From positions 1-64,000 of the forward strand of contig NZ_FXTX01000003.1 in assembly GCF_900182795.1 (NCBI RefSeq): 64,000 nucleotides of DNA, given 5' to 3'. The notes under the pieces were generated by a model that did not search any database, was not told the origin of the DNA, and was given only the letters and a program-made list of their open reading frames with translations. This DNA comes from Venenivibrio stagnispumantis (GTDB taxonomy: Bacteria > Aquificota > Aquificia > Aquificales > Hydrogenothermaceae). Both the position numbers and the translations under genes were made by a program. Shown in pieces: positions 131 to 16,869 of the stretch. Each line of letters begins with the position of its first letter. The stretch's first letter is position 1.

Positions 131-172
131 TTACAAACCATTTATACATTCTTGGTAAGAAAATGTTTGTAA
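131..172 (+). promoter_or_regulatory. Inverted repeat enclosing the cas2 ribosome-binding site and start codon
   Basis: Bases 131-143 (TTACAAACCATTT) can pair with 161-172 (AAATGTTTGTAA), about 12 pairs with one bulged C. The 17-base loop holds the weak Shine-Dalgarno GGTAAG, and the cas2 ATG (163-165) sits in the 3' arm. If it forms in the mRNA it would bury the start codon. No experiment supports it; the pairing is visible in the sequence. Confidence 0.4.
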
Positions 173-429
173 TACTTGTTTATGATGCAAATGAAAAAAG
201 GGTTCAAAAATTTCATAAAATATGTAAAAAATATTTAACATGGGTTCAAAACAGTGTTTTTGAAGGTGAAATCTCTGAAGCAAACCTAAGAATATTAATA
301 GATGAATTGGAAGAGATAATGGATATTAAGGAAGATAGTATCTTGATATATAAATTTAGAACAAAAAAGTATTATGATAGAGAAACTATTGGAATTCCAA
401 AACCTTCACATGAAGATTTATTTATCTAA
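163..429 (+). CDS. cas2: CRISPR-associated endonuclease Cas2
   Basis: Cas2 is the structural partner of Cas1 in the spacer-integration complex. The 88-residue length is normal. The N-terminal beta strand VILVYDANEKRVQKFHKIC carries the conserved Asp (residue 8) of the ferredoxin-like fold, followed by Y-L-x-W-V-Q-x-S-V-F-E-G, a Cas2 hallmark. The gene runs opposite to the cas effector operon, and its stop overlaps that of cas3 by 4 bases in a tail-to-tail arrangement. It probably belongs to a separate cas1-cas2 transcript entering from the left. Its start codon lies in a predicted hairpin. Confidence 0.95.
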   Translation: MFVILVYDANEKRVQKFHKICKKYLTWVQNSVFEGEISEANLRILIDELEEIMDIKEDSILIYKFRTKKYYDRETIGIPKPSHEDLFI

Positions 430-2762
430 AACCCAAAATAAAATTTATCTTTGATTTTAAATCCGGTTTCTAAATCATAAAAATATTCCAAATTGGAATA
501 AGGTACATAATAAAATCCATTTTCTATATGTGGTGTATTATCTTTTATAGGGACAGATATAATATATTGATAAAACTTAGCTTTTAAATCATCAAAAGCT
601 TTTTTCTTTTCAAAAATATCCCTTATTTGTATTATCTGACAAAATTCTTTCCATATTTTTTGGGCTTCTTCATCAACTTCAACAAATATATCTTCTTTAT
701 AATAATCTTCTTCAATCAGAACAAAATCTTTTATAGATGTTATTTTGTTTTTTTCTTTTTCTCCATCAAATTTTAAAGAATAAAGCATATTAAGTAAATC
801 TATAGAAATTTTATCTGATTTTCTTTTTTGAATTTCATTATAAAAGTTATGAACAAGATTTAATATATCTTTTTCTTCGTAATAATCTTTATATAATATT
901 GATTTTGTGATAGAAATTAAAACAGCATCATAAACATAAAAACTATATTCTTTATTATTGTTATCTACTAAATTTATGATATAAAAATTACCTTTGGATT
1001 TATTGCTATTGCGATTACACCTTCCGGCAGATTGGATTAGGCTATCTAAAGGGGCAAAATCTCTATAAACTACATCAAAATCTATATCTACGCCGGCTTC
1101 TACAAGTTGTGTTGAAACTACTATTCTTTTTTTACCTTCTTGAATTTCTTTTATTCTTTTAAATCTTTCTTTTGGAATTATATAAGTAGAAAGAAAGGTA
1201 ATTTCTTCTTGATTAAATTGGTTTTTTAGCCTTTCGTATAACTCTTTTGCAGAATTTACAGTATTTAGTATAAATAAATAACTTTTATCTGGTTTTATAT
1301 CAAGATTGCTACAAAATGCTTCTATGGTTTGTGGTGTTTTGTTTATATAGATGTTGTATCTATTTAAATTTTCAAAGTAATAATTTGAATTAATAGCAAG
1401 TTCTTTTGAATTTTCAAAAATAAATGGTTGTGTAGCTGTTGATAATATAACATAAAAATTGAACTTTTCTGCCATTTTTGTTAAAAATTCATTTATTAAA
1501 AGCCAGTATTTATGAGGTATTGATTGAATTTCATCAAGGATAATGATTGAGTTTGTAAATCTATGAAATTTTCTTATCATTTTATTTTTATTTGTAAATA
1601 TAGAATAAAAAAATTGCATAAATGTAGTTGTAATAATCTTACTATTAAAACCTTCAATTAAAATTCTTGAACTATCATAATCAAATTCATCTTCTTTTTC
1701 TCTATAGCTAAAACCGGTTAAATGATGGTATTTTAATAATAATGTATTATCAACAGATATTTTAGAATGTTTTAAAACTTTTTCAAAAACATTATGATTT
1801 TGTTCTATTACAGATAAAAATGGTAAACTGTATATTATTTTTAAATCAATACCTCTTTCTTTTTTTACTTTTTCTGCTATTTTTAAAGCAAGTTTAAAAG
1901 AGATTAAAGTTTTACCTATACCGGTAGGTAAAGTAATTGTTAATATTTTATTGTTTATATCAATATCTTGATTTGTAATTTCTTCAAAAGCTTTTTTCCT
2001 CAAATTATTTATTTTATTATCTCTTTGAGATAATGCTCTTACATAACTATCTACAATGTTACTTTCTAAATCTATATCTTTAAACAAAATAGATTTATCA
2101 ATTTTAATACCTACATCCGATTTATCAGCATCTAAAAGAAGAGAAAATAAAAGTAATGTATTAAGATAATAATCTAATGATTTTTTTTCTTTAAGATTTC
2201 TTATAAATCTTTTTATTTCTCTTAATTTTTTATTAATTTTATCAAAATCTATATCTTCAAAAGAAAATTTTAATAAATCTTTGTTTTTAATGTTTAAATT
2301 ATTTAAAAATACATTAAATTTTTCTTTATCTATTGCATTTATTTGATTTTTTAGTAATTCTATTTCGGTATCTTCTAAAATAACTTCATTTAAAAAATCT
2401 CCTAAATTACCATGATGTCTTTTTGGTAATATAAATCCAAGAGAAAGTAAAAATAGGTCATTTATATTTTTAGAACTTAAATATCTTTCTGTAAGACATA
2501 AACCTATTACTCCGCCAAGTAAAGCATGTTTTGTTTCAGGTCTATTTCTAAGGGTTTTATCTCCTTTTATGTATTCTTGAAAATAATCGGTTGATTTTCC
2601 AATATCGTGGGAAAATGAAATAATAGTTAGAATATCTTTTAAGATTTCATTATAGATATTATCTTTTTCAAAAAATTTTAGAGATAACTTTATCACACTA
2701 TTAATATGCTCTTCTAAAAGCCTATCTGGATGAGAAAGAAGTCCTGAATTAATTTTATCCAT
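426..2762 (-). CDS. cas3: Cas3 helicase-nuclease of the type I-B system
   Basis: Cas3 is recruited by the Cascade complex to unwind and degrade target DNA. The 778-residue protein has an N-terminal HD nuclease domain (H19, H52-D53 in FSHDIGK, H79) followed by a superfamily-2 helicase. Walker A LPTGIGKT lies near residue 280, a DEIQ box near 407 and motif VI QSAGRCNR near 576. HD and helicase are in one chain, the usual I-B form, and all key motifs look intact. It is the last gene of the cas operon, 3 bases after cas5, so it is transcribed furthest from the promoter. Confidence 0.96.
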   Translation of the reverse strand: MDKINSGLLSHPDRLLEEHINSVIKLSLKFFEKDNIYNEILKDILTIISFSHDIGKSTDYFQEYIKGDKTLRNRPETKHALLGGVIGLCLTERYLSSKNINDLFLLSLGFILPKRHHGNLGDFLNEVILEDTEIELLKNQINAIDKEKFNVFLNNLNIKNKDLLKFSFEDIDFDKINKKLREIKRFIRNLKEKKSLDYYLNTLLLFSLLLDADKSDVGIKIDKSILFKDIDLESNIVDSYVRALSQRDNKINNLRKKAFEEITNQDIDINNKILTITLPTGIGKTLISFKLALKIAEKVKKERGIDLKIIYSLPFLSVIEQNHNVFEKVLKHSKISVDNTLLLKYHHLTGFSYREKEDEFDYDSSRILIEGFNSKIITTTFMQFFYSIFTNKNKMIRKFHRFTNSIIILDEIQSIPHKYWLLINEFLTKMAEKFNFYVILSTATQPFIFENSKELAINSNYYFENLNRYNIYINKTPQTIEAFCSNLDIKPDKSYLFILNTVNSAKELYERLKNQFNQEEITFLSTYIIPKERFKRIKEIQEGKKRIVVSTQLVEAGVDIDFDVVYRDFAPLDSLIQSAGRCNRNSNKSKGNFYIINLVDNNNKEYSFYVYDAVLISITKSILYKDYYEEKDILNLVHNFYNEIQKRKSDKISIDLLNMLYSLKFDGEKEKNKITSIKDFVLIEEDYYKEDIFVEVDEEAQKIWKEFCQIIQIRDIFEKKKAFDDLKAKFYQYIISVPIKDNTPHIENGFYYVPYSNLEYFYDLETGFKIKDKFYFGF

Positions 2763-2765
2763 TTT

Positions 2766-3464
2766 TCACAGAAAAGAGATTATACTATCTCCCACTTTAT
2801 AACAATTTTTAAACTTGCCTTCAAGAATATTACCTACAAGTTCCATAACTACATCTTTATAAGCTAAGGGTTCTCTATTTATATTCATATCTGTTGGTAA
2901 TTTTTCTTTAAAATATTTTTTACCTTCTTTGATTTCTATTTCTTCTATATTTTCTGAAAGTATAGCTGTATCAACTTTATTTGAAATAGATAAAGGCTCT
3001 GCATTAGCTACATTAATAAAGGAAAAATTTGCCAATAAATTAGCAAGTCCTAAGGAAACGGTATAATAACATTCTTTATTTTGCACTTTCTCAATCAGTT
3101 GGTTAAATAAATCATCATTATCTATATTTATAAATAATCTATAAGCCGGTTGTTTTAAAAATTCTGTTTTAATCTGTGTCCGCGATTTTATAAGGTTAAA
3201 ACTTCCTGAATTTTTTGTATCTATCAAGTTTAGCGTCATTCTTGTTTTTTTAATTGGTTTTAAAATTTGAATAGCTACCTTAGTGTTTCTACCATTTATA
3301 TGTTTCAGATAATCATTTTTAGATAGCCCTAATATTGCTCCTAAAATTCCATAGATTGCTGTTGGTGGTGGGATAGAAAATGTAAGTGGTGAAGATGTAG
3401 TATAAAATTTTTTAAAATGTCCAAATTCTCCCCAAATGTCAAATATTAAAGTTTTTTTAGACAT
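2766..3464 (-). CDS. cas5: Cas5 subunit of type I-B Cascade
   Basis: Cas5 caps the 5' handle of the crRNA in Cascade. The 232-residue protein begins with a beta strand TLIFDIWGEFGHFKKFYTTS and continues with the Cas5 signature SPLTFSIPPPTAIYGILGAI (a P-P-P/S-T-x-x-G-x-L-G element). The length fits the Cas5h/Cas5b group. Its start overlaps the end of the nucleotidyltransferase gene by 8 bases, so translation is probably coupled. Cas3 follows directly. Confidence 0.93.
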   Translation of the reverse strand: MSKKTLIFDIWGEFGHFKKFYTTSSPLTFSIPPPTAIYGILGAILGLSKNDYLKHINGRNTKVAIQILKPIKKTRMTLNLIDTKNSGSFNLIKSRTQIKTEFLKQPAYRLFINIDNDDLFNQLIEKVQNKECYYTVSLGLANLLANFSFINVANAEPLSISNKVDTAILSENIEEIEIKEGKKYFKEKLPTDMNINREPLAYKDVVMELVGNILEGKFKNCYKVGDSIISFL

Positions 3465-3750
3465 TTATAGCCTCTGAATATATATACTTTTGAAGTTCTT
3501 TCCTTACTGCTTCTTTTATAACAAGGTCAACTTTCAAACCAAATAAATCTTCTAAATAAAATTTTAATCCCATATAATTGTCAAAACTTTTTCTCCCTTT
3601 CTCAAACTCTACAAGAATATCAATATCACTTTCTGGAGTTTGCTCTCCTCTAACATAAGAACCAAAAATATATAAATTTTTCACACCATATTTTTCTTTT
3701 AGCTCCGGCATTCTCTCTTTCAAAGTTTGCTTTATTTCTTGTAAATTCAT
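3457..3750 (-). CDS. Minimal nucleotidyltransferase (MNT/MntA-like) inside the cas operon
   Basis: A 97-residue protein of the pol-beta minimal nucleotidyltransferase type. It shows IFGSYVRGEQTPESDIDILV (residues 28-47), which is the G-S-x-x-R-G...S-D-x-D active site with both metal-binding Asp residues. Such proteins usually act as antitoxins that AMPylate a HEPN RNase encoded next to them. Here there is no HEPN partner: cas7 is upstream and cas5 overlaps its 3' end by 8 bases. It is therefore a solitary MNT wired into a type I-B operon. The target is unknown, and it could equally be a passenger. Confidence 0.85.
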   Translation of the reverse strand: MNLQEIKQTLKERMPELKEKYGVKNLYIFGSYVRGEQTPESDIDILVEFEKGRKSFDNYMGLKFYLEDLFGLKVDLVIKEAVRKELQKYIYSEAINV

Positions 3751-3781
3751 CTCTATTCCATTTTTAATAAAATTTTTTATA

Positions 3782-3803
3782 AAATAATTCTAAAAAATTA
3801 TTT
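3782..3803 (-). promoter_or_regulatory. A+T-only hairpin at the cas7/MNT boundary
   Basis: AAATAATT and AATTATTT (8 pairs, 6-base loop) overlap the cas7 stop codon and precede the MNT gene. It has no GC pairs, so it would be weak at high temperature. It could mark a processing or attenuation point between the first ten and the last three genes of the operon. Confidence 0.25.
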
Positions 3804-4692
3804 CTTCAAATTTAATTTTATCAGAGCTTAAATCTTTGCTTAATATTAAATTTCTATCTTTTTTATAAAATACTTTTTGTATTTTTTCTGCTTCTTCTTC
3901 CAATATCTCTAAAAGTTTATCAATATTTAAGATAAAATCATCTGTGCTTCGTAGTTCTTCATCTGTTTTTTCGCTTTCTATTTTTATATATCTGTGAAGT
4001 TCTCCTATATGAGAATTGATGCCTTCTTTATAAATTACTTCAATAAGTAATCTTGGCATTTGGTTTTTAGAACGGGTTATCAGATTTTTTGTCCCTTCCC
4101 AGATAGCCTTTTTAAGAAGTTCTAAATCTTCATTTGTTAATTTTGTTAATTTTGCTGCATTTTGATTTGCTACTCCATGAAAAGCAATAAATGAGTATGG
4201 AAGTATCCATTCTTCTCTAAAGGTTTTCTGCTCTTTCCCTGAGCTTGATGCAAAGGCTCCTGTTCCTTTTATAAATTCAAGTTTAACTCTGTGGAGAGAT
4301 TGTCCCATACCAAATTGCACTGCTCCTGTATATGTGATAGAGCTATCTTTACTTTTTCCGGTAGTTATTGGTATAGTTCCACCAAATAATCTAACATCAA
4401 TACATTCATTTAATATTTTTTCAGGATTGTTATCAAAATCTTTTGCTCTTGCTTTTGCATCTTGAATTTTTCCATCTTCGTTTGCTATTTCTCTAACGAA
4501 TATTTCCAGTCCTTCAAACTCTTTTAAATAATCTCTAATAGTTCTTTTGAGCCTAACATCTGTAACAATATTTCTACCGGTTTCTTCATCTATTCTTGGT
4601 TTGTTTTCATCGTTTGGGTCACCGTTTGGATTTGCAAAGCTAACATCATACAAAAACAAATACTCTCTTCTGTTTTTAATAATTTCTCCCAT
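3790..4692 (-). CDS. cas7: Cas7 backbone subunit of type I-B Cascade (Csh2)
   Basis: Cas7 polymerises along the crRNA spacer. The family signature is present near the N-terminus: YLFLYDVSFANPNGDPNDEN, then RIDEETGRNIVTDVRLKRTIRDY, as in Csh2/Csd2 proteins. The 300-residue length is normal. I place the start at the ATG at 4692, because GAGGTGATTAAG precedes it at good distance; the GTG three codons earlier lies inside that Shine-Dalgarno. Cas8b is upstream with a 76-base gap, the largest within the operon. Confidence 0.95.
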   Translation of the reverse strand: MGEIIKNRREYLFLYDVSFANPNGDPNDENKPRIDEETGRNIVTDVRLKRTIRDYLKEFEGLEIFVREIANEDGKIQDAKARAKDFDNNPEKILNECIDVRLFGGTIPITTGKSKDSSITYTGAVQFGMGQSLHRVKLEFIKGTGAFASSSGKEQKTFREEWILPYSFIAFHGVANQNAAKLTKLTNEDLELLKKAIWEGTKNLITRSKNQMPRLLIEVIYKEGINSHIGELHRYIKIESEKTDEELRSTDDFILNIDKLLEILEEEAEKIQKVFYKKDRNLILSKDLSSDKIKFEEIIF

Positions 4693-4777
4693 CTTAATCA
4701 CCTCTTAAATAATTTTTCTTATAAAGTTCAAATTAAAACTCCTTTTTGGCTAAATATATCTTTTGTAATTTCCTTTA

Positions 4778-6457
4778 TCAGACAGTCTGACTTTCTTTCT
4801 CATTTTCATAAACCACATTTGCAACATCTTTATATAATGCCATTCCGGATACAAAATAAAAGTTGATTTCATCTATATTTAATTTAAATTTATCCTCTGA
4901 TAATAAATTTTTACTTATTTCCTCAGCTATTTCTTTTTTACCTTTGTCATATTTATCATATTCCATTAGCTTGTTTATAACTTTTGCAAGTAAGCCTTTT
5001 ATATCTTCTTCATTCATTTTTAAGCCTTTTAGATTTTTTACAAAAGGTGTGCTTTGCCTTTCTTGAGCTTGGATATTTAAAAGCATTTGAGTTAATGCTC
5101 CAAGTAAAAATATTCCCCTTTTAGCCGGTGTGTTTAAAGATTTTCCTACTTTTTGATAAATTTTTTCAAATTTTGAGTTTTCCATAATTTCTCCCTCATA
5201 TTGTAATAAACCAATTTCTTCAAAAAATTTAATATTCATTAAAGCATCAAAAACAGTATAACTAAAATTATTACCATTAAGAAAATTTTCCCGTATTTTT
5301 TTATTAAAAATCTGTATCAATGTTTTAAAATCAATTTTTCCTTCTTTAAAAATTTTATCTATAACTTCATAAAATGTTTTATCAAATTCATCTAAAAATC
5401 TAACAATTTTTCCAAAATTATATTCTTGAGAGAAGATTTTATCAACTTTTTCTTTTGCATCAAATATTTTATGTATTCTTGACGGAAGAACATCCTCTAT
5501 GGATAGAAGTATTCTTTCAGCAGCGTTATCTTTTTTTAAAAAGAGCAAATAAAAACTAACTACATCTTTATAATCTTTCAATATTTCAAATATTTCTTCC
5601 TTATCATCTGTTATTAATTTTTTATTTTCTAAGGTTATTTTTCCAGCTTCATAAGACAATATCTCATTTATTTCTTTCAAAGCTTCCGGAGTATCTAAGA
5701 TTAATTTAGGAATAATATAATAATCTTTTCCATAAAATTTAAATTTAAGTTTTTCTTCTATATATTTTTTGGCATAATCTATTTTTAGAAAACATTCTTC
5801 GCATATAGGAAAATTTTTCCAAGCATCTTTTTTGCTAAATCCAGACGTTATATAACATTCTTTATCAAGTGTATAAAATTTATAAATTAAGGAAGTGGTA
5901 AAAACTTCATCTTTTTTTTCTCCACATACACTACAAACAGCATCTTTTTTAGATACTTCTTTTATTTTTGCCATAAAATCATTTATCAAAATCTCTTTAA
6001 AATTTGGTTCTTCTATTTCGTATAGATATTTTCCATCTATTTTTAAGGTGATAATTTTGCCGTCTTTTGTTTGGTTTTGTTTAATTTTTGTCAAGATTTC
6101 TTCTTTATGATTTTCTAATTCTTTGTAGATTTTGTTTATTTCCGGAATATTTTTATGATTTTCAAACCATCTTAAAATTTTATTTTCTAATGTTTTTTTC
6201 GGTTCAGTTATTCTGGAAGTAGGAGAAAAATCCGGAGCATTAGAGCCGGAAGCTCTTTTATATAGATATATTTTCCAATTCTCACCTTTAAACTCTTCAA
6301 CTACCACATCTTTAAAATTTAAATCTTTATCAAATTCTAAAACAAATACCGTCTTATATGTTCCATTACTATCCGGATTTTCAAGGAGAATATCAACAAC
6401 TTCTTTTTGTTCATTTTCTAAAAGCAACTGTCCAATGTATTTAAGTGCTGTTAGCAT
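4778..6457 (-). CDS. cas8b: Cas8b large subunit of type I-B Cascade (Csh1)
   Basis: Cas8b is the large Cascade subunit that recognises the PAM. This protein has 559 residues, slightly short for Csh1. A treble-clef-like zinc site is visible as C-x-x-C (CSVCGEKK) and, after about 45 residues, C-x-x-C (ICEECFLK), in the family's usual place. The assignment also rests on its position directly upstream of cas7 and cas5. The sequence is otherwise poorly conserved. It follows the CARF-RelE gene by 12 bases, which ties the I-B genes to the III-A genes in one transcript. Confidence 0.9.
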   Translation of the reverse strand: MLTALKYIGQLLLENEQKEVVDILLENPDSNGTYKTVFVLEFDKDLNFKDVVVEEFKGENWKIYLYKRASGSNAPDFSPTSRITEPKKTLENKILRWFENHKNIPEINKIYKELENHKEEILTKIKQNQTKDGKIITLKIDGKYLYEIEEPNFKEILINDFMAKIKEVSKKDAVCSVCGEKKDEVFTTSLIYKFYTLDKECYITSGFSKKDAWKNFPICEECFLKIDYAKKYIEEKLKFKFYGKDYYIIPKLILDTPEALKEINEILSYEAGKITLENKKLITDDKEEIFEILKDYKDVVSFYLLFLKKDNAAERILLSIEDVLPSRIHKIFDAKEKVDKIFSQEYNFGKIVRFLDEFDKTFYEVIDKIFKEGKIDFKTLIQIFNKKIRENFLNGNNFSYTVFDALMNIKFFEEIGLLQYEGEIMENSKFEKIYQKVGKSLNTPAKRGIFLLGALTQMLLNIQAQERQSTPFVKNLKGLKMNEEDIKGLLAKVINKLMEYDKYDKGKKEIAEEISKNLLSEDKFKLNIDEINFYFVSGMALYKDVANVVYENEKESQTV

Positions 6458-6469
6458 TTTGGTTTTCCT

Positions 6470-7600
6470 TTATTTTAGATGAGCATCTATTTTATCCAAA
6501 ATATATTTCCCATCTTTGGATTTTATATATAACCTTCTGTTATCATTACCATCAAATGGGTATATTTCATATTGGTAAGTTTCTGAAATATTACCTTTTA
6601 GTTCGTGGAATCTCAAAGATTTTTTGCAATCTTGAAAATTTCTTTCTATACAGATTTCAAGGTCGTCAATTTTTTTATTTAATTGTAAGCGTTCAGAAGG
6701 ATTTAAAGATTCAAATTGTTTCTTTAATTGAGTTGACATTTCTATTCTTTTTGAAATTGGTTCAACTAATCTTTCTTTGTAAACTTCATCTTTTATATTT
6801 TGCCATATAAGTTCTCCCCAAGGAGACATAGCAAAACCATTATCAATTTTTAAATAAACAATTTCAGGTAATTTATCTATCTCTTCTTTTATAACATCTT
6901 GATATATTCCTAATTCTAACATTCTAAATAAATTTAGGTTTTCCTTGAAAATACCTTCCTCTATCTTTATTGGTAATCTTGGTATTCTTAATAAATTCTC
7001 ACTTGTTTCAAATATATATATACTTTCATCTGCATATAAAGAAGCTACAGTTTGTAGAAAACTATTTATACTTTTAAATCCACCGGTAAGGTTAAAAATT
7101 ATTTTATATCCACCTGATTTGAAAGGCTTTATTATTTCATTGACTAAATTTTTTGCTAAATCTGACAAAGAAATTTGAAACTCTTCAAAAGAAGATGTTT
7201 TTAAATCTTTAGCTGTAATTGATTCTACATTTGTAATTCCCTTATTTTTAAATAACTCTATTAAAATTTCTGCAACTTTCTTACCTAAGTATGTATCTGT
7301 ATGAAGAAAATAATGATAATCCATTTCAGGAAAGTTTTTAATATCATTTTGGTAAAAATTTATCAAAGCATTTAATTCTGCACTTGTTTCTTTTAGCTCT
7401 GATAAATTAAACTTTAATAACTTTTCTTTTACATCTTTTATAAATTTATCAAACTTTTCTTTTTTTTCCTTAGGAAATTCTTTTTCTGTATAATTAGAGT
7501 ATTTATATATATTTTCATCAAAGTTCAATTCTTTTGCCATATTTGTAAGAATGCTTAAACCACAGCTTGTAAGAATAAAATTTCCTACGATTTTATCCAT
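6470..7600 (-). CDS. CARF-RelE fusion, candidate cOA-activated mRNA interferase (Cami1-like)
   Basis: The N-terminal part is a CARF sensor of the APE2256/TIGR02619 type: TSCGLSILTN at residues 11-20 and FNLTGGFKSINSFLQ near 168-182 are the two ligand-lining motifs. The middle has the FAMSPWGELIW stretch typical of this group. The last ~85 residues look like a RelE/HigB-fold toxin, with HELKGNIS, then R355-R356-L-Y358 and a terminal I-D-A-H374. In CARF-RelE proteins such as Cami1, cyclic oligoadenylate from Cas10 activates ribosome-dependent mRNA cleavage. It overlaps the csm5 end and lies within the III-A gene set, which fits that role. Activity is inferred. Confidence 0.8.
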   Translation of the reverse strand: MDKIVGNFILTSCGLSILTNMAKELNFDENIYKYSNYTEKEFPKEKKEKFDKFIKDVKEKLLKFNLSELKETSAELNALINFYQNDIKNFPEMDYHYFLHTDTYLGKKVAEILIELFKNKGITNVESITAKDLKTSSFEEFQISLSDLAKNLVNEIIKPFKSGGYKIIFNLTGGFKSINSFLQTVASLYADESIYIFETSENLLRIPRLPIKIEEGIFKENLNLFRMLELGIYQDVIKEEIDKLPEIVYLKIDNGFAMSPWGELIWQNIKDEVYKERLVEPISKRIEMSTQLKKQFESLNPSERLQLNKKIDDLEICIERNFQDCKKSLRFHELKGNISETYQYEIYPFDGNDNRRLYIKSKDGKYILDKIDAHLK

Positions 7601-8541
7601 CCTAATACCTCATTTTCTTTAGTTAATCTTCTTGTTTTTGGGAAAGAAATGTTATATCCGGTTTTTTTAGAAAGCAAAACGATTGTATGACTTAGTTTTC
7701 CGGTAAATCTTCCTATTCTTATTAATGGATTTTCTTCTGTATTTTCATTTTCAAGATTTTGATAAAATTTTAAAATCTCTTGATTTTTATCTTTCCAATA
7801 TTCTTTTTCTACATCTATTAAATCTTTTGCATATTCATAACAGCTTTGTTTCCAATTGATTATGTATTTATTGTATTTGAAATTTTGAAATTCTCTTCTA
7901 TTTTGGAATATTTTTATTTTTGTTTCTAACTTTGTATCTTTTTTAAGACATTCTGCATATTCTGAAAATTTTTTCCTTGTATTTATAATTTCTATTTTTT
8001 TGGCTACGAGATTTTGTGTTTCTATCGGCTTTGTATCTTCTACCATAAAAAATTTCATTATATCATTTGATATTTTTCCGAATGCTTTTTCTTCTATTTC
8101 TCTTGCAATTTTATTATTTTTATCTTCATTAACAAATTTCAATTTATCTTTAAATTCCTGTAAATTATTTTTAACTATGCTATATAAAATAGCAGTTCTT
8201 ATTGCTCCTTTTATTTCTGACCCCGGAATATAAGGTTTATCTGCTGTTTTTATAAACTCATGGATTTCATTTATGTTTGTATCATTTACATTTAAGCTAT
8301 ATCTTTTTATATCATTTAGGTATTTTCTTATTAAATTTTCATCTATTTCATTATTACTTTCTATTTGTGCAATTATATTTTCCAGCTGTTTTTCATCAAG
8401 TTTTGATAAAAATTTATTTAGACTATATATAACTATATTTCTGCCTTCCGGTATATATTCAAGTTTTGTTATTTTTTCGCCTGAACCTATATGAACCGGT
8501 GATTTTATAGTAAGATTTATTTTTTCTTCAATATATCCCAT
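7585..8541 (-). CDS. csm5: Csm5 RAMP subunit of the type III-A Csm complex
   Basis: Csm5 caps the 3' end of the crRNA in the Csm complex. The N-terminal RAMP motif INLTIKSPVHIGSG and the G-rich element YIPGSEIKGAIRTAILYSI are characteristic. The C-terminus ends in EVLGWIK, close to the G-W ending common in Csm5. I choose the ATG at 8541, because GGAG lies 9 bases upstream, rather than the GTG at 8550. The start sits just after the csm4 stop, and the end overlaps the CARF-RelE start by 16 bases. Confidence 0.92.
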   Translation of the reverse strand: MGYIEEKINLTIKSPVHIGSGEKITKLEYIPEGRNIVIYSLNKFLSKLDEKQLENIIAQIESNNEIDENLIRKYLNDIKRYSLNVNDTNINEIHEFIKTADKPYIPGSEIKGAIRTAILYSIVKNNLQEFKDKLKFVNEDKNNKIAREIEEKAFGKISNDIMKFFMVEDTKPIETQNLVAKKIEIINTRKKFSEYAECLKKDTKLETKIKIFQNRREFQNFKYNKYIINWKQSCYEYAKDLIDVEKEYWKDKNQEILKFYQNLENENTEENPLIRIGRFTGKLSHTIVLLSKKTGYNISFPKTRRLTKENEVLGWIKS

Positions 8542-8543
8542 TT

Positions 8544-9479
8544 TTACCACTCCATATATACAGGAAATTCTAAGCCGTATTGGTATATATCATTACTAAT
8601 ATGTTTTAAAACTCCGGCAAACTGGTTGGTATCTTGTTTTTTTATTATTGAACCTTCTTCTATATAATCAATCTTACCTTTTAATTTTGGTTTCTCAAAA
8701 CTTCCATCTGTATATGAGACAAATGTGTAAAAGTTATAATAGCTATTTTTTAAATTTATATTTTTTGCAATTATAGGAGAAAGGGTTATAAATTTATCCG
8801 TTTCTTTTCTTCCTAAGAATGAAAAATTTTTATCATCTTCTAAAATCTCTACCTTTCCCCAACCAATATTTTTATTTCCACCTAAACCAAGCTCCTGAAC
8901 TATTTTTAATATTTTTTCAAACTCATTTATAAATGATTCATCAATAAATTTAACTAAAAAATATTTTTCTTGATTTTCAAAAGGGACAATCCCTTCCTCA
9001 AAATAAAGATTTTTAGATTCATTATTAATCCTATTTATCTGATTATGGACAAATATCTGATTTTTACCGAAATTTAAACTACTAAGATTTTCATCATTAT
9101 CATAAATTACTCCGGATTTAACATTTAGCTTCATTAAATCATTTTGGTTTTTAACTTCTCCTTTTATAATCTTCTCTAAAACTTTTTGGGTAATATATAC
9201 TGCATTTTTATATGGTTTTCTTTTTAATTTTTCTAATATTTTTATATCTGATGATAGCTTAAGTTCAAAAAATGGTTTAGGGAATAGATATATATCTTCT
9301 ATAACCGGAAACGGAGAGGATATTAAAAATTTTGGATTTTCTGAAAATTCTTTTAAGAAATTTTCTAATCTATCTTTTCCATATAAAAGTCTATAAGCCC
9401 AACAAAAAGCACCGAAAATTGTATAGCTTTTTATAGTGGTATATGGTGATAAAAATTTTATTCTATAAGCCTTTATCAT
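8544..9479 (-). CDS. csm4: Csm4 RAMP subunit of the type III-A Csm complex
   Basis: Csm4 binds the crRNA 5' handle next to Cas10. The 311-residue protein starts MIKAYRIKFLSPYTTIKSYTIFGAFCWAY, a typical Csm4/Cas5-like first strand and helix. It contains the glycine-rich loop QELGLGGNKNIGWGKVEI near residue 200 that marks RAMP proteins. It lies between csm3 and csm5, as in canonical III-A operons, 2 bases after the csm3 stop. Confidence 0.92.
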   Translation of the reverse strand: MIKAYRIKFLSPYTTIKSYTIFGAFCWAYRLLYGKDRLENFLKEFSENPKFLISSPFPVIEDIYLFPKPFFELKLSSDIKILEKLKRKPYKNAVYITQKVLEKIIKGEVKNQNDLMKLNVKSGVIYDNDENLSSLNFGKNQIFVHNQINRINNESKNLYFEEGIVPFENQEKYFLVKFIDESFINEFEKILKIVQELGLGGNKNIGWGKVEILEDDKNFSFLGRKETDKFITLSPIIAKNINLKNSYYNFYTFVSYTDGSFEKPKLKGKIDYIEEGSIIKKQDTNQFAGVLKHISNDIYQYGLEFPVYMEW

Positions 9480-9481
9480 AA

Positions 9482-10258
9482 CTACTGCCCGATTTTAGTT
9501 ATTTTATCTATCTCATCTTTTAATTTCTCAATTTCTATTTCTTTTTCAACCCCATTTATATCTATTATTTTTGCTTTTTTGGGTTCGCCTATTTCTACTC
9601 TTCCATATCCTCTTGAACCACTTCCACCAAGATAATCATTTTCAAGTAGTTTTATACCTTTTTGTAATATTTCTAGTGTATTTTGATAGCTATCTCCTTC
9701 AAAGAGTCTTATTATTATATTTCCTTTAAATATTGAACCGGGAATAACTCTTTCTTGATGTCTTGGATGTGCTGCTGTGCCGGTTATTCTATTTATAGTA
9801 TTTTCTGTTTTGATTTCTGTATATAAACCTTCAAGCACATCTTCCCACATCTGTATGGTTTCCATTGTAGGATAAAAATCATCAAATCTAACTCTTACAG
9901 GTTCTGTTTGATTTTTGCCGGCTTTATGAGTTCCAAAAAGTTTGCATATATTACATTTTCCACAGTTACAAGGTTCTCCATTGTTAGATATTGCAATTGG
10001 AAGATTTGGATTATTTTGAGGTTTTTCTACCCATTCAAGTAAAGCTCTTATTTTACCTTTTAAAGATGAACCGGGAATATATGGAACATTTCTTTTTCCT
10101 TCATAATAAGGTGTTTTTATAACTATATTATCTATTCCACCTATTTCTATACTCTCCTTAGAACCGCCTATATGCAATCCGGTTAATACTTCAATTTCAT
10201 AGCTTAATTTTAAAATAGCTTTTAATGGCTTGTTAAAAGTAGCTTGATTGTTTGACAT
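9482..10258 (-). CDS. csm3: Csm3 backbone RNase of the type III-A Csm complex
   Basis: Csm3 forms the helical backbone and cuts target RNA at 6-base intervals. D43 in IEIGGIDNIVIK matches the catalytic Asp position of the family. The RAMP motif YIPGSSLKGKIRALLEW follows, then a Cys cluster CNCGKCNICKLFG (zinc site), and near the end GGSGSRGYGRVEIG. The 258-residue length is normal. A strong AGGAGG-type ribosome-binding site precedes the ATG. Confidence 0.96.
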   Translation of the reverse strand: MSNNQATFNKPLKAILKLSYEIEVLTGLHIGGSKESIEIGGIDNIVIKTPYYEGKRNVPYIPGSSLKGKIRALLEWVEKPQNNPNLPIAISNNGEPCNCGKCNICKLFGTHKAGKNQTEPVRVRFDDFYPTMETIQMWEDVLEGLYTEIKTENTINRITGTAAHPRHQERVIPGSIFKGNIIIRLFEGDSYQNTLEILQKGIKLLENDYLGGSGSRGYGRVEIGEPKKAKIIDINGVEKEIEIEKLKDEIDKITKIGQ

Positions 10259-10261
10259 CTT

Positions 10262-10750
10262 TTATTCCTCCTTTGGATGATGATATGTATGATAAGCAAT
10301 AATTGCTTCAAAAATGTGGTCAAAAGCTTCAAAATCTTTTCTTTTGCCATCTTTTAATTTTAGAAGTAATAATTTCATAAATTCATAAAAATTCTTATCT
10401 ATAGTTTTTCTACCGGAAGCATAAGCAAGTTTTGGTATAAGGGCAGTTACTCTAATACGGATATCCGGTTTTAAATTTTCATCCGGTTTAATTTCTACTA
10501 TCTTTTGTTTTAATTCTTTTACTTCATTGAAAAATTTTCTTAACTGGCTTCTTTTTATTGTTGTTTCTTTGGCTATTTTTTCTGCAAATCCGTTCGGTTC
10601 TATAAATTTCTCAATATCAAGTTCAGATATATTTTTTCCTTTTAAATTTCTTTCAAGCACAATATTAAATGCGTATAAAAAATCTACATTATTCCATCCT
10701 TTAGTTCTTTTTATTTCTTTAATTTCGTTATAAACTTCTTCAACAGTCAT
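10262..10750 (-). CDS. csm2: Csm2 small subunit of the type III-A Csm complex
   Basis: Csm2 is the small alpha-helical subunit that lines the target RNA. At 162 residues it is a little longer than many homologues. The C-terminal half shows the conserved helical pattern, with KLAYASGRK and FYEFMKLLLLKL. The assignment leans on its place between cas10 and csm3. The rest is Lys/Glu-rich helix without catalytic motifs, as expected. Confidence 0.88.
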   Translation of the reverse strand: MTVEEVYNEIKEIKRTKGWNNVDFLYAFNIVLERNLKGKNISELDIEKFIEPNGFAEKIAKETTIKRSQLRKFFNEVKELKQKIVEIKPDENLKPDIRIRVTALIPKLAYASGRKTIDKNFYEFMKLLLLKLKDGKRKDFEAFDHIFEAIIAYHTYHHPKEE

Positions 10751-10751
10751 C

Positions 10752-13445
10752 CTAATTACCTCCTCTGGTTTTCATTAATACTAAAGGGATTATAACATCT
10801 AAATTTTTTAAAACATTTTTTGTGGTTATTAAAATTTTGCCATTTTCTTTAAAACCTTCTTTTATTAACGTATTTTCAAAAAATTCTCTGACATCATTAT
10901 CTTTTATATTTCTTGCAATTTGATAGTAGATTTTAGGATATATCATAGCTTTTATCTTTTCCTCTTTTCCTATATAACTTTGATGAAATCTCAATAATTT
11001 AAATAAAAAGCTTCTGCTTATTTTATCTTTTTCGTAATATTCTATAATTTTATTGGCTAATTTAATGATATACTCGTAAAATACAACTTCTTTATTTTCT
11101 TCCGGATTTGATATTCCTATATTGTATAAAATAGAGTTATCATTGCTATATTCATTCTGGATAAGGATTTCTAAGGTTTTTCTTCCTTGATAATCTCTCC
11201 ATCTAAATGGTTTATCTAATATAGCTATGTTATCTTTTAAAATAATATTACCATTTTGTTTAAACATTGTTTTTTTAGCGATATTTTCAAGATTTTCCGA
11301 AAATTTAGCAGTCATGTGGATAGGTGTTGTAGGGGAAGATATGTATATTCCACCGGATAATCCAAAATCTAAATTTTTTCCGGTATATTTATAAAATTCT
11401 TCCCTTAATCTTAATGCAAAATCTAAAATTATGTTATAAGGTGCTATTAAAAATAAATCATCACCACCGGAATAAACAATATATATTAAAGAGTTTATAT
11501 TTTTCAGTTCTATCTCTTTATTTCCTACTTTCTTTTTAATTGGTAAACTCTCTTTTGTAAAATCCTGAACTAATTTATTGATATATCCACTAAAAAATAA
11601 ATCAAGCATTCTACTTAATGTAGCAACCCTTGATATTGTGTATCTTTCGGAGTCATTTTTGCCTTTTTTTCTAAGTCCATCGCTAAAAATTAATCCGAGA
11701 TTATCTACATCGGCTCTGAATATACCAAGTTTTTTATCACCTTCTGATAACTCAGCTAACCAAGAAAAAGGAACAACATTTGCTTTGAGAGTTTCATCCC
11801 CTTTTTTGAAAGTTTCATTATCTTTATTTTCAGCTATGATTTTGAAAAATTCTTCATTATCTTCATCTATAAAAGGCACTGTATTTCCTAAGAATTTAAA
11901 ACCATTATTTTTTTCAAAAGTTGTATCATTTAATAAAAGTATTTCTTCTGCATCTTTAAATTTATCAATATTTTCCTCTTCTACAAGATAGACCGTTCCA
12001 AAATTTCCAAGAGTAATGGAAGTAATATTATTTTGATTAGTTATATTTTTACCGAATACTATATACTTAATTTTTGGTAATTTATTTCCTATTTCATTTG
12101 ACTTTTCACAAAGATAACAGATAGCATCCTCTTTTTCAACCGGTAGTTTTTTACAAGAAGGACATATAAATTCTTTTTTGCTTTCATTTTCATCTTTTCC
12201 GATTTGTTTATCAAATCTTTGTTTTTTCTTTTTATCAAGTAAAATTTGAAGTTCATCTATAACATCTGCATAATTTTTATGGTCTTTTCCGGTAAGATAC
12301 TCTCCGGAAAATTCTTTATAAGCTATTGTTATTCCAAGTTCTGCAAAAAATTCTTTATAAAAATATTCTTGAAGTTTTTCTTTTATTTCTTCTAATTTTT
12401 TATTATTATTCTCTGTATTTGCAACTAATAATTGGAATTTTCCACCACTTGTATATATTGCATTTGTGATTGTATATCCAAGCTCATTTAATATATGTCT
12501 TGATATAATCTCCGGTATCATAGAAACTAAGAATGAACGACCTCTTAATGCTTTGGATATTGAAAAATTTTTTATACCTTGAGTTTTTCCTAAGTTATAT
12601 ATAAATTTTTGAATTCCGTTTATATCTGCTTCTATCAAGAGTAAAAAGTCTTGTTTTTCCAATGCGTTAAAATCCAGTTTTGATATATCTAATCCGGTTT
12701 GTTTTGCATAATCGTATATAGCACAGGCAATTGCTGATAATATTCTTGAATGGTCAAATAAAGATATATCCGGATAATGTCTGCTTTTTTTCTCAATATC
12801 ATAAGTAGATGCCGGCACACACCAAAGATATTTTTGAAGCAGATAATATATAAATATAAATGCTTGTTTCCCTTTAAATCTTGATAATTTTTTTAGTTCA
12901 TTTATAAATTCATTCCATAAATCCTTATAATTTCCAAGTTCTTCTTCTATTTCTGCTTTATTTTTGCCTATAAATCTTATAAAATTACCTTCATAAATAC
13001 CTTCATAGGTTTTTGGAAAAATTCTTTCGTCTAATGCCAAAGGCTCCAATCTATAATATCCAAAATCTTTTCCTCCTGTATCTGATTCTCCTGTAAATGA
13101 TACCCTTTCAAAAACTGTATGTAAAAAGTTTATTTCATCTTCTCTTATTCGCTCTCTTTCGGCAGAGGAAAACCAATCTGCTATCTGCATTATTTTTTCA
13201 AGCTCATTTGAAGGATTATGATGCTTAGATGCTATATTTGCTATCTCTTCCGGATTAAGATTTAGATTTTTTTCTAAATATTCTCTGAAAAATTTTTTTA
13301 TTGCTATATATGAATATAATGCATGGTCATATTTAAAATCTTCTTTATTGTAATTTGAGATATTTTCTTCCGGTTTTGTCCTTAAATAAAACTTTCCAAT
13401 ATCGTGAAGCAGACCTGCTAAGGCTAATTTTTCTATATTATTCAT
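10752..13445 (-). CDS. cas10: Cas10/Csm1 with intact HD and cyclase sites
   Basis: Cas10 is the signature subunit of type III systems. Upon target RNA binding it cuts ssDNA with its HD domain and makes cyclic oligoadenylates with its palm domain. The 897-residue protein has HD motif GLLHDIGKF (H14-D15), a zinc ribbon with C-P-S-C and C-Y-L-C near residues 427-445, and the catalytic YSGGDDLFLIA (GGDD) near 658. All are intact, so a second-messenger output is expected, which matches the CARF-RelE gene in the operon. The start has AGAGGT five bases upstream. Confidence 0.96.
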   Translation of the reverse strand: MNNIEKLALAGLLHDIGKFYLRTKPEENISNYNKEDFKYDHALYSYIAIKKFFREYLEKNLNLNPEEIANIASKHHNPSNELEKIMQIADWFSSAERERIREDEINFLHTVFERVSFTGESDTGGKDFGYYRLEPLALDERIFPKTYEGIYEGNFIRFIGKNKAEIEEELGNYKDLWNEFINELKKLSRFKGKQAFIFIYYLLQKYLWCVPASTYDIEKKSRHYPDISLFDHSRILSAIACAIYDYAKQTGLDISKLDFNALEKQDFLLLIEADINGIQKFIYNLGKTQGIKNFSISKALRGRSFLVSMIPEIISRHILNELGYTITNAIYTSGGKFQLLVANTENNNKKLEEIKEKLQEYFYKEFFAELGITIAYKEFSGEYLTGKDHKNYADVIDELQILLDKKKKQRFDKQIGKDENESKKEFICPSCKKLPVEKEDAICYLCEKSNEIGNKLPKIKYIVFGKNITNQNNITSITLGNFGTVYLVEEENIDKFKDAEEILLLNDTTFEKNNGFKFLGNTVPFIDEDNEEFFKIIAENKDNETFKKGDETLKANVVPFSWLAELSEGDKKLGIFRADVDNLGLIFSDGLRKKGKNDSERYTISRVATLSRMLDLFFSGYINKLVQDFTKESLPIKKKVGNKEIELKNINSLIYIVYSGGDDLFLIAPYNIILDFALRLREEFYKYTGKNLDFGLSGGIYISSPTTPIHMTAKFSENLENIAKKTMFKQNGNIILKDNIAILDKPFRWRDYQGRKTLEILIQNEYSNDNSILYNIGISNPEENKEVVFYEYIIKLANKIIEYYEKDKISRSFLFKLLRFHQSYIGKEEKIKAMIYPKIYYQIARNIKDNDVREFFENTLIKEGFKENGKILITTKNVLKNLDVIIPLVLMKTRGGN

Positions 13446-13484: not shown

Positions 13485-14228
13485 TTAATCAATTTCTGAC
13501 ATTACCTCTATCATCCCAAAACCTTGGGAGTTTTTTGCTCCAAGTCCGGCATCATAAACAACTTTAAACATATCCGGATTTGTTTTTATTTTAAATATTC
13601 CTTCATAAGCCTCTATCGGAAAATCTTTATATTTGAATAATACTTTTTTTATATCTTTTGCCGGCTTTATATCTATTGGAAATTCTTCTATATTTTCACC
13701 AGTTATAAGATTATATTTTTTAGTTAGATTAATTTTTATTAGCTCTGCAAAATCTTTTTCCGATGGAGAGTAATATTTGTAATATTTTTTATCATTTTCT
13801 ATGGTTCTATAAACTGTTATCGGTGATAAGGTTTTTATATAAAACTCTTCTTTGAATTCTGGCTGTTTTTGAATTTCTATCTCTTGTAGATAAAGGTTAT
13901 TCTTTCCAAGGAAAATCCTATCTTTTCTTATAAAATTTTCTCCCCATCTGTGTGGTATCTCTTCTATGGCTGAGGATATATATATGCTGATTGGTGATTT
14001 GTATTTTATCTTTTTATCTTTTAAAAGTGGAAAATATTGCTCTGAATAGATTTTTGAAAATGTAAATAATTTAAAAGCTCTGTTATTATAAAAAAATCCT
14101 ATATCGTGTAGGTATTTGGCAAGTGGTTCCGGTAGATTTCCATAAAGCATCCCCTGAATATATTCATTATGATGGATAGGAAGATATATATATTCTTTAT
14201 CTGCTGAAAAAGATATTTTTAATCTCAA
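13485..14228 (-). CDS. cas6: Cas6 crRNA-processing endoribonuclease
   Basis: Cas6 cleaves the repeat RNA to release crRNAs with an 8-base 5' handle. The 247-residue protein has the N-terminal feature LPIHHNEYIQGMLY with a plausible catalytic His, and the C-terminal glycine-rich loop AGLGAKNSQGFGMIEV, both typical. It starts with TTG at 14228, supported by GAGGGG eight bases upstream. It is the first gene after the operon promoter and the only cas6 seen. It presumably supplies crRNAs to both the I-B and III-A complexes. Confidence 0.93.
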   Translation of the reverse strand: MRLKISFSADKEYIYLPIHHNEYIQGMLYGNLPEPLAKYLHDIGFFYNNRAFKLFTFSKIYSEQYFPLLKDKKIKYKSPISIYISSAIEEIPHRWGENFIRKDRIFLGKNNLYLQEIEIQKQPEFKEEFYIKTLSPITVYRTIENDKKYYKYYSPSEKDFAELIKINLTKKYNLITGENIEEFPIDIKPAKDIKKVLFKYKDFPIEAYEGIFKIKTNPDMFKVVYDAGLGAKNSQGFGMIEVMSEID

Positions 14229-14351: not shown

Positions 14352-14828
14352 TTAGTCCTTATTTTTCAATTCTTTATATGTAAGTATGATATTAATATTT
14401 TCTTCTAAATCTAAGTTAGCAAAATCTTTATCCAAAGTGATTAAATTATTTATATCTTTTTCTATACAGATAGCAAGAATTAAAGCATCTTTAGGTAATA
14501 ATCCGTATCTTTCGCAAATATTAAACAAAATTTCATGTGTGTTTTTACTTGGCGAAATAACTTTAAAAAAGGTTTTTAGAATACTTTCAATTAAAGGAAT
14601 AACAATTTTGTATGTATCTTTTGCTATGTTAGGATTGTGCTTTAAATCCCAGTAAGATTTTTTAGAAAAATGTTTTACAAGAACATACAATATCTCTTCT
14701 ATTGCATCTAAGGTTAGATAATATTCATTGTTAGGATTGCTTTTAACAAAATTAACAATATTTACTGCTTCAGGATTACCTTTCATATATTCAATAATTA
14801 CATTACTATCTACCATAAATTTCTTCAT
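14352..14828 (-). CDS. VapC-like PIN-domain toxin
   Basis: A PIN-domain RNase with the acidic residues of the active site: D7 in MVDSNVIIEYMKG, a Glu in AIEEILYVL, D in LPKDALILAIC and D in TLDKDFANL. The length of 158 residues is normal for VapC. I choose the ATG at 14828, six bases after GGAG; the upstream TTG overlaps that signal. It overlaps the antitoxin gene by 23 bases, which is typical of a toxin-antitoxin pair. The pair separates the CRISPR leader from cas6. The RNA target is unknown. Confidence 0.85.
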   Translation of the reverse strand: MKKFMVDSNVIIEYMKGNPEAVNIVNFVKSNPNNEYYLTLDAIEEILYVLVKHFSKKSYWDLKHNPNIAKDTYKIVIPLIESILKTFFKVISPSKNTHEILFNICERYGLLPKDALILAICIEKDINNLITLDKDFANLDLEENINIILTYKELKNKD

Positions 14829-15015
14829 AAATTTCTCCAATAAGTTCTTCAGCCGATTTATCTGTTTTTAATATTCCTTTAAGTTTATCAAGAGCTTCCT
14901 CGCCTTTTTTTCTTTCTTCAAATTCTTTTAAAATCTTTTCTATTTCTTGTGATGTCAATGATGTTTTTATTTTTAATTCTTTTTCATCTTTTGTTTCAAT
15001 GATTACTTTACCCAT
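14806..15015 (-). CDS. Putative antitoxin partner of the PIN toxin
   Basis: A 69-residue, highly charged helical protein (MGKVIIETKDEKELKIKTSL at the start). A beta strand is followed by long Glu/Lys helices, a layout seen in small thermophile antitoxins. It lies directly upstream of and overlaps the PIN toxin gene. GGAG is seven bases before the ATG. I do not recognise the DNA-binding family; antitoxin function is inferred from context. Confidence 0.7.
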   Translation of the reverse strand: MGKVIIETKDEKELKIKTSLTSQEIEKILKEFEERKKGEEALDKLKGILKTDKSAEELIGEIYEEIYGR

Positions 15016-15427: not shown

Positions 15428-16869
15428 GTTTGTAGCGTGCCTATAAGGAGTTGAAACATAACTTCCTTTAATAGAGTTTCTACTATTTTCTTTGCTTGTT
15501 TGTAGCGTGCCTATAAGGAGTTGAAACATCTCTTCACTGTTTTGTGCTATTTTGATTACCGATAGTTTGTAGCGTGCCTATAAGGAGTTGAAACTGATTA
15601 AATTTTCATCTTCTACTAATAGGAAATTATTAGTTTGTAGCGTGCCTATAAGGAGTTGAAACTGATAGCTCTTGCTGTAATTTCTTCTATTTTGATATTG
15701 TTTGTAGCGTGCCTATAAGGAGTTGAAACAAGAACTGAATTTGTGAATTCTCCCTATTGAAATCAGTTTGTAGCGTGCCTATAAGGAGTTGAAACTAATA
15801 ATATCGATTTCGGTTAAACATTTGTTTAAATTGTTTGTAGCGTGCCTATAAGGAGTTGAAACTTTTTGGGGGTTTTGTAATGACAGATAAACAGACAAAA
15901 GTTTGTAGCGTGCCTATAAGGAGTTGAAACCGTTGTCAAGTTTTTCTATTTCATCTTTTAACATTAAGTTTGTAGCGTGCCTATAAGGAGTTGAAACAAT
16001 CCACCATCAATAGAGATACAGCAGGGTATAATGAGTTTGTAGCGTGCCTATGAGGAGTTGAAACTCGCTAAAATATCAGGAAAGCATAATAAAGAATTAT
16101 CGTTTGTAGCGTGCCTATGAGGAGTTGAAACGAAGATATCCGGATAGAATAGGCTCTATCCTAAACAAGTTTGTAGCGTGCCTATGAGGAGTTGAAACTA
16201 CAAAAATCCCCATACATCCCAGAACAATCTATCAAGTTTGTAGCGTGCCTATGAGGAGTTGAAACAACACTTCAAGTAACCCTTGAATGATAACACCCTT
16301 TGTTTGTAGCGTGCCTATGAGGAGTTGAAACATCCGGAACAGAGGAATCATCAGAAGAAAAAATCAGAAGTTTGTAGCGTGCCTATAAGGAGTTGAAACT
16401 TTTAATCTATTTAGTATTTCTTCCAATTTATACCAGTTTGTAGCGTGCCTATAAGGAGTTGAAACTAATATCTCCATTATCTAATTGTCTTGTAATAAAT
16501 CGTTTGTAGCGTGCCTATAAGGAGTTGAAACAATTTTATTGTCAATATTTCGCTAAATTCTTAGCAGAGTTTGTAGCGTGCCTATGAGGAGTTGAAACGT
16601 CTCAATCTGTTTTTGAGATTTAGTCTCAATTGGGTTTGTAGCGTGCCTATGAGGAGTTGAAATAATAAATTGGTGTTCTTAATTTCTATAAATAATCCTA
16701 AAGTTTGTAGCGTGCCTATGAGGAGTTGAAACGCTATTCTTTCTAAATTAAACATAGAATTACCATAAAGGTTTGTAGGGTGCCTATAAGGAGTTGAAAC
16801 TTTATACAATGGTCGCATGCTATATTCCACAACTCTGGAGTTTGTAGCGTGCCTATAAAGAGTTGAAAT
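15428..16869 (+). CRISPR. CRISPR array, 22 repeats of 30 bp and 21 spacers
   Basis: The repeat starts GTTTGTAGCGTGCC and ends AGTTGAAAC (30 bp). Spacers are 35-40 bp, mostly 36-38. Repeats start at 15428, 15498, 15565, 15633, 15700, 15766, 15833, 15901, 15968, 16035, 16102, 16169, 16236, 16302, 16370, 16436, 16502, 16569, 16634, 16703, 16771 and 16840. Position 18 is A in repeats 1-9, 15-17, 21 and 22, and G in 10-14 and 18-20. Repeat 19 ends in T, repeat 21 has G at position 9, and repeat 22 has A at position 19 and a final T. Decay at the right end puts the leader on the left. GTTGAAAC would be the 8-base crRNA handle. Confidence 0.98.

Follow-up and report, generated by a model that had tools for sequence, protein, structure and literature searches.

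The window, a 64,000-nucleotide stretch of the Venenivibrio stagnispumantis genome, carries a CRISPR operon in which the genes are arranged on a single strand in the order cas6-cas10-csm2-csm3-csm4-csm5-CARF-RelE-cas8b-cas7-MNT-cas5-cas3, with gaps of no more than 76 nt. The features of the locus, with the supporting models in parentheses, are:

163–429, plus strand: cas2 (TIGR01573)
426–2762, minus strand: cas3 (TIGR01587, TIGR01596)
2766–3464, minus strand: cas5b (TIGR02592)
3457–3750, minus strand: MNT nucleotidyltransferase gene, MntA-like, within the I-B operon (PADLOC PDC-S09)
3790–4701, minus strand: cas7b/csh2 (TIGR02590)
4778–6457, minus strand: cas8b/csh1 of the I-B module (TIGR02556, TIGR02591)
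6470–7600, minus strand: predicted CARF-wHTH-RelE effector gene, 376 aa, Cami1-like (Pfam, PADLOC, AF2 model, structure search)
7585–8550, minus strand: csm5 (TIGR01899, E = 2e-33)
8544–9479, minus strand: csm4 (TIGR01903)
9482–10258, minus strand: csm3 (TIGR02582)
10262–10750, minus strand: csm2 (TIGR01870)
10752–13445, minus strand: cas10/csm1, with HD and GGDD (TIGR02578, E = 3.2e-170)
13485–14228, minus strand: cas6 (TIGR01877)
15428–16869, plus strand: CRISPR array, 22 repeats of 30 nt (GTTTGTAGCGTGCCTATAAGGAGTTGAAAC)

The NCBIfam subunit names identify a complete Csm set (csm1–csm5), and hence a III-A system, followed by a I-B part composed of Cas8b/Csh1, Cas7/Csh2, Cas5h, and Cas3, in agreement with the mixed III-A/I-B operon put forward in the original prediction. 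Cas10 has HD at 14–15 and, as had also been proposed, GGDD at 660–663, supporting a synthetase-competent enzyme. The CARF-RelE open reading frame is intact and begins with ATG; it shares 16 nt with the end of csm5, and a 12-nt gap separates it from the start of cas8b, so that its neighbours are csm5 and cas8b and no partner antitoxin gene adjoins it. The operon that carries it is apparently undamaged.

Several further genes and repeats accompany the locus. The space separating the array from the operon contains a PIN-domain (VapC-like) gene (14352–14840, minus strand), immediately upstream of cas6. Arrays of the window's 30-nt repeat, with variants, are present on five contigs of the genome (G000:C3, C4, C5, C20, and C29), and there are cas1 genes on C18 and on C20, the latter close to a contig end. 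Within the I-B operon, the MntA-like gene is situated between cas7b and cas5b and overlaps the latter by 8 nt. At a locus of another genome of the same family (L092:957-11671, G069), which can be compared with positions 426–4701 of the window, the same MNT gene has a HepT-like partner downstream of it, with an identical 8-nt overlap; this partner is missing in the window, and the MNT gene therefore looks orphaned. The L092 I-B operon contains three pairs of MNT and HepT/NTase-substrate-binding genes and one pair of Phd and RelE/YafQ genes, distributed over the cas8b/cas7 gap, the cas7/cas5 gap, and two sites between cas5 and cas3. In three relatives (L077, L079, and L083), the gene preceding cas3 in the I-B operon encodes a YafQ/RelE-like toxin and runs at its end into the start of cas3, and a Phd-like antitoxin was read beside it in L077 and L083; the window is without this insert, its cas5b-cas3 gap being 3 nt. 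RNA-based CreTA systems inside cas loci have been reviewed (PMC12737573), and a search of that review found no description of protein-based toxin-antitoxin pairs among Cascade genes.

As modelled, the protein encoded at 6470–7600 is composed of a CARF domain, a winged helix, and a RelE-fold domain:

6956–7582, minus strand: CARF domain, approximately residues 7–215, CARF7/Cas_APE2256, with S16, E75, and K176 kept (Pfam, Sis0811 profile match, model strands E7–12 to E203–207, conservation)
6773–6958, minus strand: winged-helix-like segment, approximately residues 215–276 (H-H-H-E-E-H in the model; Sis0811 aligned over ~280 columns)
6470–6748, minus strand: RelE-fold domain, residues 285–376, with R356 nearly invariant (Cami1 and YafQ structure matches, profile-profile alignments, conservation)

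The APE2256-type CARF sensor of the original prediction is borne out by a match of Pfam Cas_APE2256 to residues 70–209 (E = 1.8e-31). The PADLOC profile CARF7--CARF_RelE, which provides the comparison with the Cami1 family that had been suggested as a check, spans residues 7–375 (E = 1.7e-109) and is matched by every row of the 39-row family alignment. Sequence support for the C-terminal domain taken by itself is weak. Pfam detects no RelE part in the single sequence, NCBIfam returns RelE_StbE at E = 0.16, and a sequence search of the PDB with the C-terminal 96 residues alone yields no RelE match; the solved relatives found by sequence are CARF-region matches to Sis0811, Sso1393 (3qyf), and Cami1. 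In profile comparisons, the subgroup to which the protein belongs (subgroup A) matches subgroup B at 82%, and subgroup B matches YafQ-like toxins of related genomes at 52%; the direct alignment of subgroup A with YafQ toxins is co-linear, with 3% probability and a score of 17.9, where reversed controls score 11.8 and 12.0. The RelE domain is thus too diverged for a direct sequence match, and it is assigned from the structural matches and the full-length profile match.

The AF2 model built from the 39-row alignment reaches a pLDDT of 90.9 and a pTM of 0.83; a single-sequence model was poor (pLDDT 49.6) and was set aside. The four best PDB matches to the model are Cami1 entries, the ribosome-bound 8phj (E = 8.7e-15, the lowest value) and the apo form 8phb (Mogila et al. 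2023), aligned over about 389 columns, with Sis0811 next. Whole-chain TM-scores to Cami1 are moderate (0.48–0.54), and domain orientation may be the source of this. Among the weaker matches is the RelE-family toxin YafQ (4q2u), over about 90 columns and with a TM-score of 0.62 by target length. Structure prediction, which had been proposed as the means of comparing both ends of the protein with known folds, thus upholds the RelE-like C-terminus as well as the CARF domain, but the winged helix between them had been overlooked. In Cami1 such a winged helix reportedly lies between the CARF and RelE domains, and here the element is supported by the structure alignment. The wHTH of Sso1393 and Sis0811 has also been described (PMC10018336).

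Conservation across the family bears on both the CARF pocket and the RelE domain. Residues S16, E75, T103, K176, and E198 are unvarying in 39/39 rows, and three of these, S16, E75, and K176, belong to the CARF pocket; the original prediction had named the absence of ligand-pocket residues as evidence against itself. In profile alignments S16 and K176 coincide with S12 and K169 of Sis0811, the positions altered in the S12A and S12G/K169G mutant structures (7pq6/7pqa), and S16, E75, and K176 correspond to S12, E70, and K167 of SyCsm6. Judged by its residues, the pocket is predicted to be of the ring-nuclease type, and the retention of the complete S/E/K set suggests that the protein probably breaks down the ligand that activates it, a point on which the original prediction was silent. 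The proposed RelE motif survives in part. R356 is present in 38 of the 39 rows, with K in the remaining one, and position 358 is Y or F throughout subgroup A, in which E345 is invariant; H332, R355, and H374, however, are not conserved. H332, from the HELKG stretch, is unique to the window protein (K in 13 and R in 1 of the other subgroup A members), R355 is variable, and H374 occurs in 6 of the 15 members of subgroup A.

The family is broad. Scanning genome contigs with the single protein recovered nothing, and scanning them with a four-row alignment recovered 48 relatives, from the Cyanobacteriota, Bacillota, Spirochaetota, Thermotogota, Synergistota, Planctomycetota, Myxococcota, and other phyla; the alignment used for the AF2 model and for conservation comprises 39 rows. 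A relative in Desulfothermus okinawensis (L058, at most 55% identical in a fragment) is frameshifted in the deposited contig and was excluded from alignments, and viral contigs and phage records held no relative at the sensitivity used. Five matches from the same phylum (L003–L007) are CARF-level; L003 and L006 were rejected as CARF-RelE relatives, being 480–482 aa long with a longer and different C-terminus, and L005, a locus of a same-order genome, encodes a CARF7-RelE protein of a different subtype (PDLC01936). In the tree the window protein sits on a long branch, and its exact placement is unsure. Thermophilic relatives, in Desulfofundulus and the Thermotogaceae, were already in the searched databases. 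The Desulfofundulus locus (L020) combines type III genes, CARF-RelE, cas6, cas8b, cas7, cas5, and cas3, matching the window in order and strand and showing that mixed type III/I-B loci with CARF-RelE are not unique; unlike the window locus, its type III module is not III-A and its CARF-RelE falls in subgroup B. CARF7-RelE proteins are a catalogued class, and a survey of 1113 type III loci found Cami1 in 135 of them (PMC11229360). The family is therefore not rare, and the original prediction, which saw in a hot-habitat member an extension of it, overstated the novelty. The protein is a further member of a widespread Cami1-like CARF-RelE family, and not something new.

Comparison with characterized systems places it more closely. 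Cami1 shares the CARF-wHTH-RelE order, the best whole-chain fold match, the type III context, and the conserved ring-nuclease-type CARF pocket, but identity in structural alignments is only ~15–17%, and Cami1 belongs to another CARF7-RelE sequence subtype with differing tail residues. The closest studied homologue is SyCsm6 (Sll7062) of Synechocystis PCC 6803, which is 33% identical over 99% of the length and is likewise in RelE subgroup A; its locus, however, is a plasmid-borne III-D system beside a Csx1 in a mesophilic cyanobacterium, whereas that of the window is a III-A system joined with I-B, and no Csx1-type CARF was found in the window's genome. The Crn1 ring nucleases Sis0811 and Sso1393 have the CARF7 domain, the winged helix, and the catalytic S and K, but act as stand-alone off-switches without a RelE domain. 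Csm6, in turn, is a CARF effector of III-A operons with a HEPN RNase domain where the window protein has RelE.

The same genome holds a III-B locus on another contig (L085:632-11799, G000:C19), with a second, Cmr2-like Cas10 that has GGDD, together with Cmr5 and Cmr6, a CalpL-related SAVED-Lon protease, a CRISPR-T (CalpT-like) protein, an HTH protein, a member of the C3a162 family, and a CARF-TM protein; the locus thus has CalpL/T/S-like genes. In Sulfurihydrogenibium sp. YO3AOP1, CalpL is activated by cA4 and also acts as a ring nuclease (PMC11417357). The L085 effectors, considered alongside this cA4-activated relative, suggest by analogy that the genome probably holds several cA4-type effectors.

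We consider it very probable that the product of the gene is a Cami1-type CARF7-wHTH-RelE effector, triggered by cyclic oligoadenylate, cutting mRNA on the ribosome, and switching itself off. In such a mechanism, the Csm complex would meet foreign RNA and the Cas10 palm would make cyclic oligoadenylate, which the relatives suggest is most likely cA4. Its binding to the CARF dimer would release the C-terminal RelE domain, and the freed domain, by analogy with Cami1, would cut mRNA on the ribosome and stop translation. The CARF pocket, if it behaves as in the studied relatives, would then slowly cleave the ring and turn the effector off. Cami1 carries out cA4-activated mRNA cleavage in the A-site (PMC11229360) and has intrinsic ring-nuclease activity (PMC12409355). 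SyCsm6 is a dimeric ring nuclease without RNase activity on naked RNA, in which S12, E70, and K167 are ring-nuclease and ligand residues and K167A abolished cA4 breakdown (PMC9676260). Points that speak against this reading are the faint RelE signal in sequence, the lack of naked-RNA cleavage by SyCsm6, the H at position 332 where the rest of subgroup A has K or R, and the moderate TM-scores to Cami1.

The SyCsm6 results also lend themselves to a different reading, in which the main role of the protein is that of a ring nuclease and its RelE domain is weak or degenerate, the CARF domain destroying cA4 from the two Cas10 proteins of the cell and thereby restraining other effectors. The lack of detectable RNase activity of SyCsm6 on total RNA (PMC9676260), the invariance of the S/E/K set, and the presence of potential targets of such restraint, the CalpL-like and CARF-TM effectors, all fit this reading. 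Nevertheless, we regard it as unlikely, since RelE enzymes need ribosomes and a naked-RNA assay is no test of them, R356 and the RelE fold are kept across phyla, which is hard to explain without function, and both activities are present in Cami1. A CARF-wHTH transcription regulator of the Csa3 kind, with an inert tail, would account for the winged-helix segment and for weak Csa3 matches in sequence (E = 9e-4 to 0.14) and structure searches, but Cami1 and Sis0811 score far better in the latter and the tail is conserved at R356 and modelled at a block pLDDT of 79 or more, making this reading highly improbable. Lastly, a Csm6/Csx1-type CARF-HEPN RNase cutting free RNA, for which PADLOC Csm6 CARF profiles matching the N-terminal half could be invoked, is largely refuted by the structure match and has a negligible probability, as the C-terminal fold resembles those of RelE/YafQ and Cami1 rather than HEPN, and HEPN is detected neither by Pfam or NCBIfam in the protein nor by Pfam in its relatives.

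The protein might also take part in a shared second-messenger network, in which the two GGDD Cas10 proteins (III-A and III-B) would feed three kinds of sensor effector, CARF-RelE, the CalpL/T/S-like proteins, and CARF-TM, and the divergent CARF-RelE subgroup would serve both as translation blocker and as off-switch of a common cA4 pool. This extension is speculative, and we hold it to be possible but doubtful. The protein is an intact representative, from a probably thermophilic host, of the SyCsm6-like CARF-RelE subgroup, which has received less study. It would be useful for structure work and for asking whether members of this subgroup share the ribosome-dependent mRNA cleavage of Cami1, the question left by the Synechocystis work.
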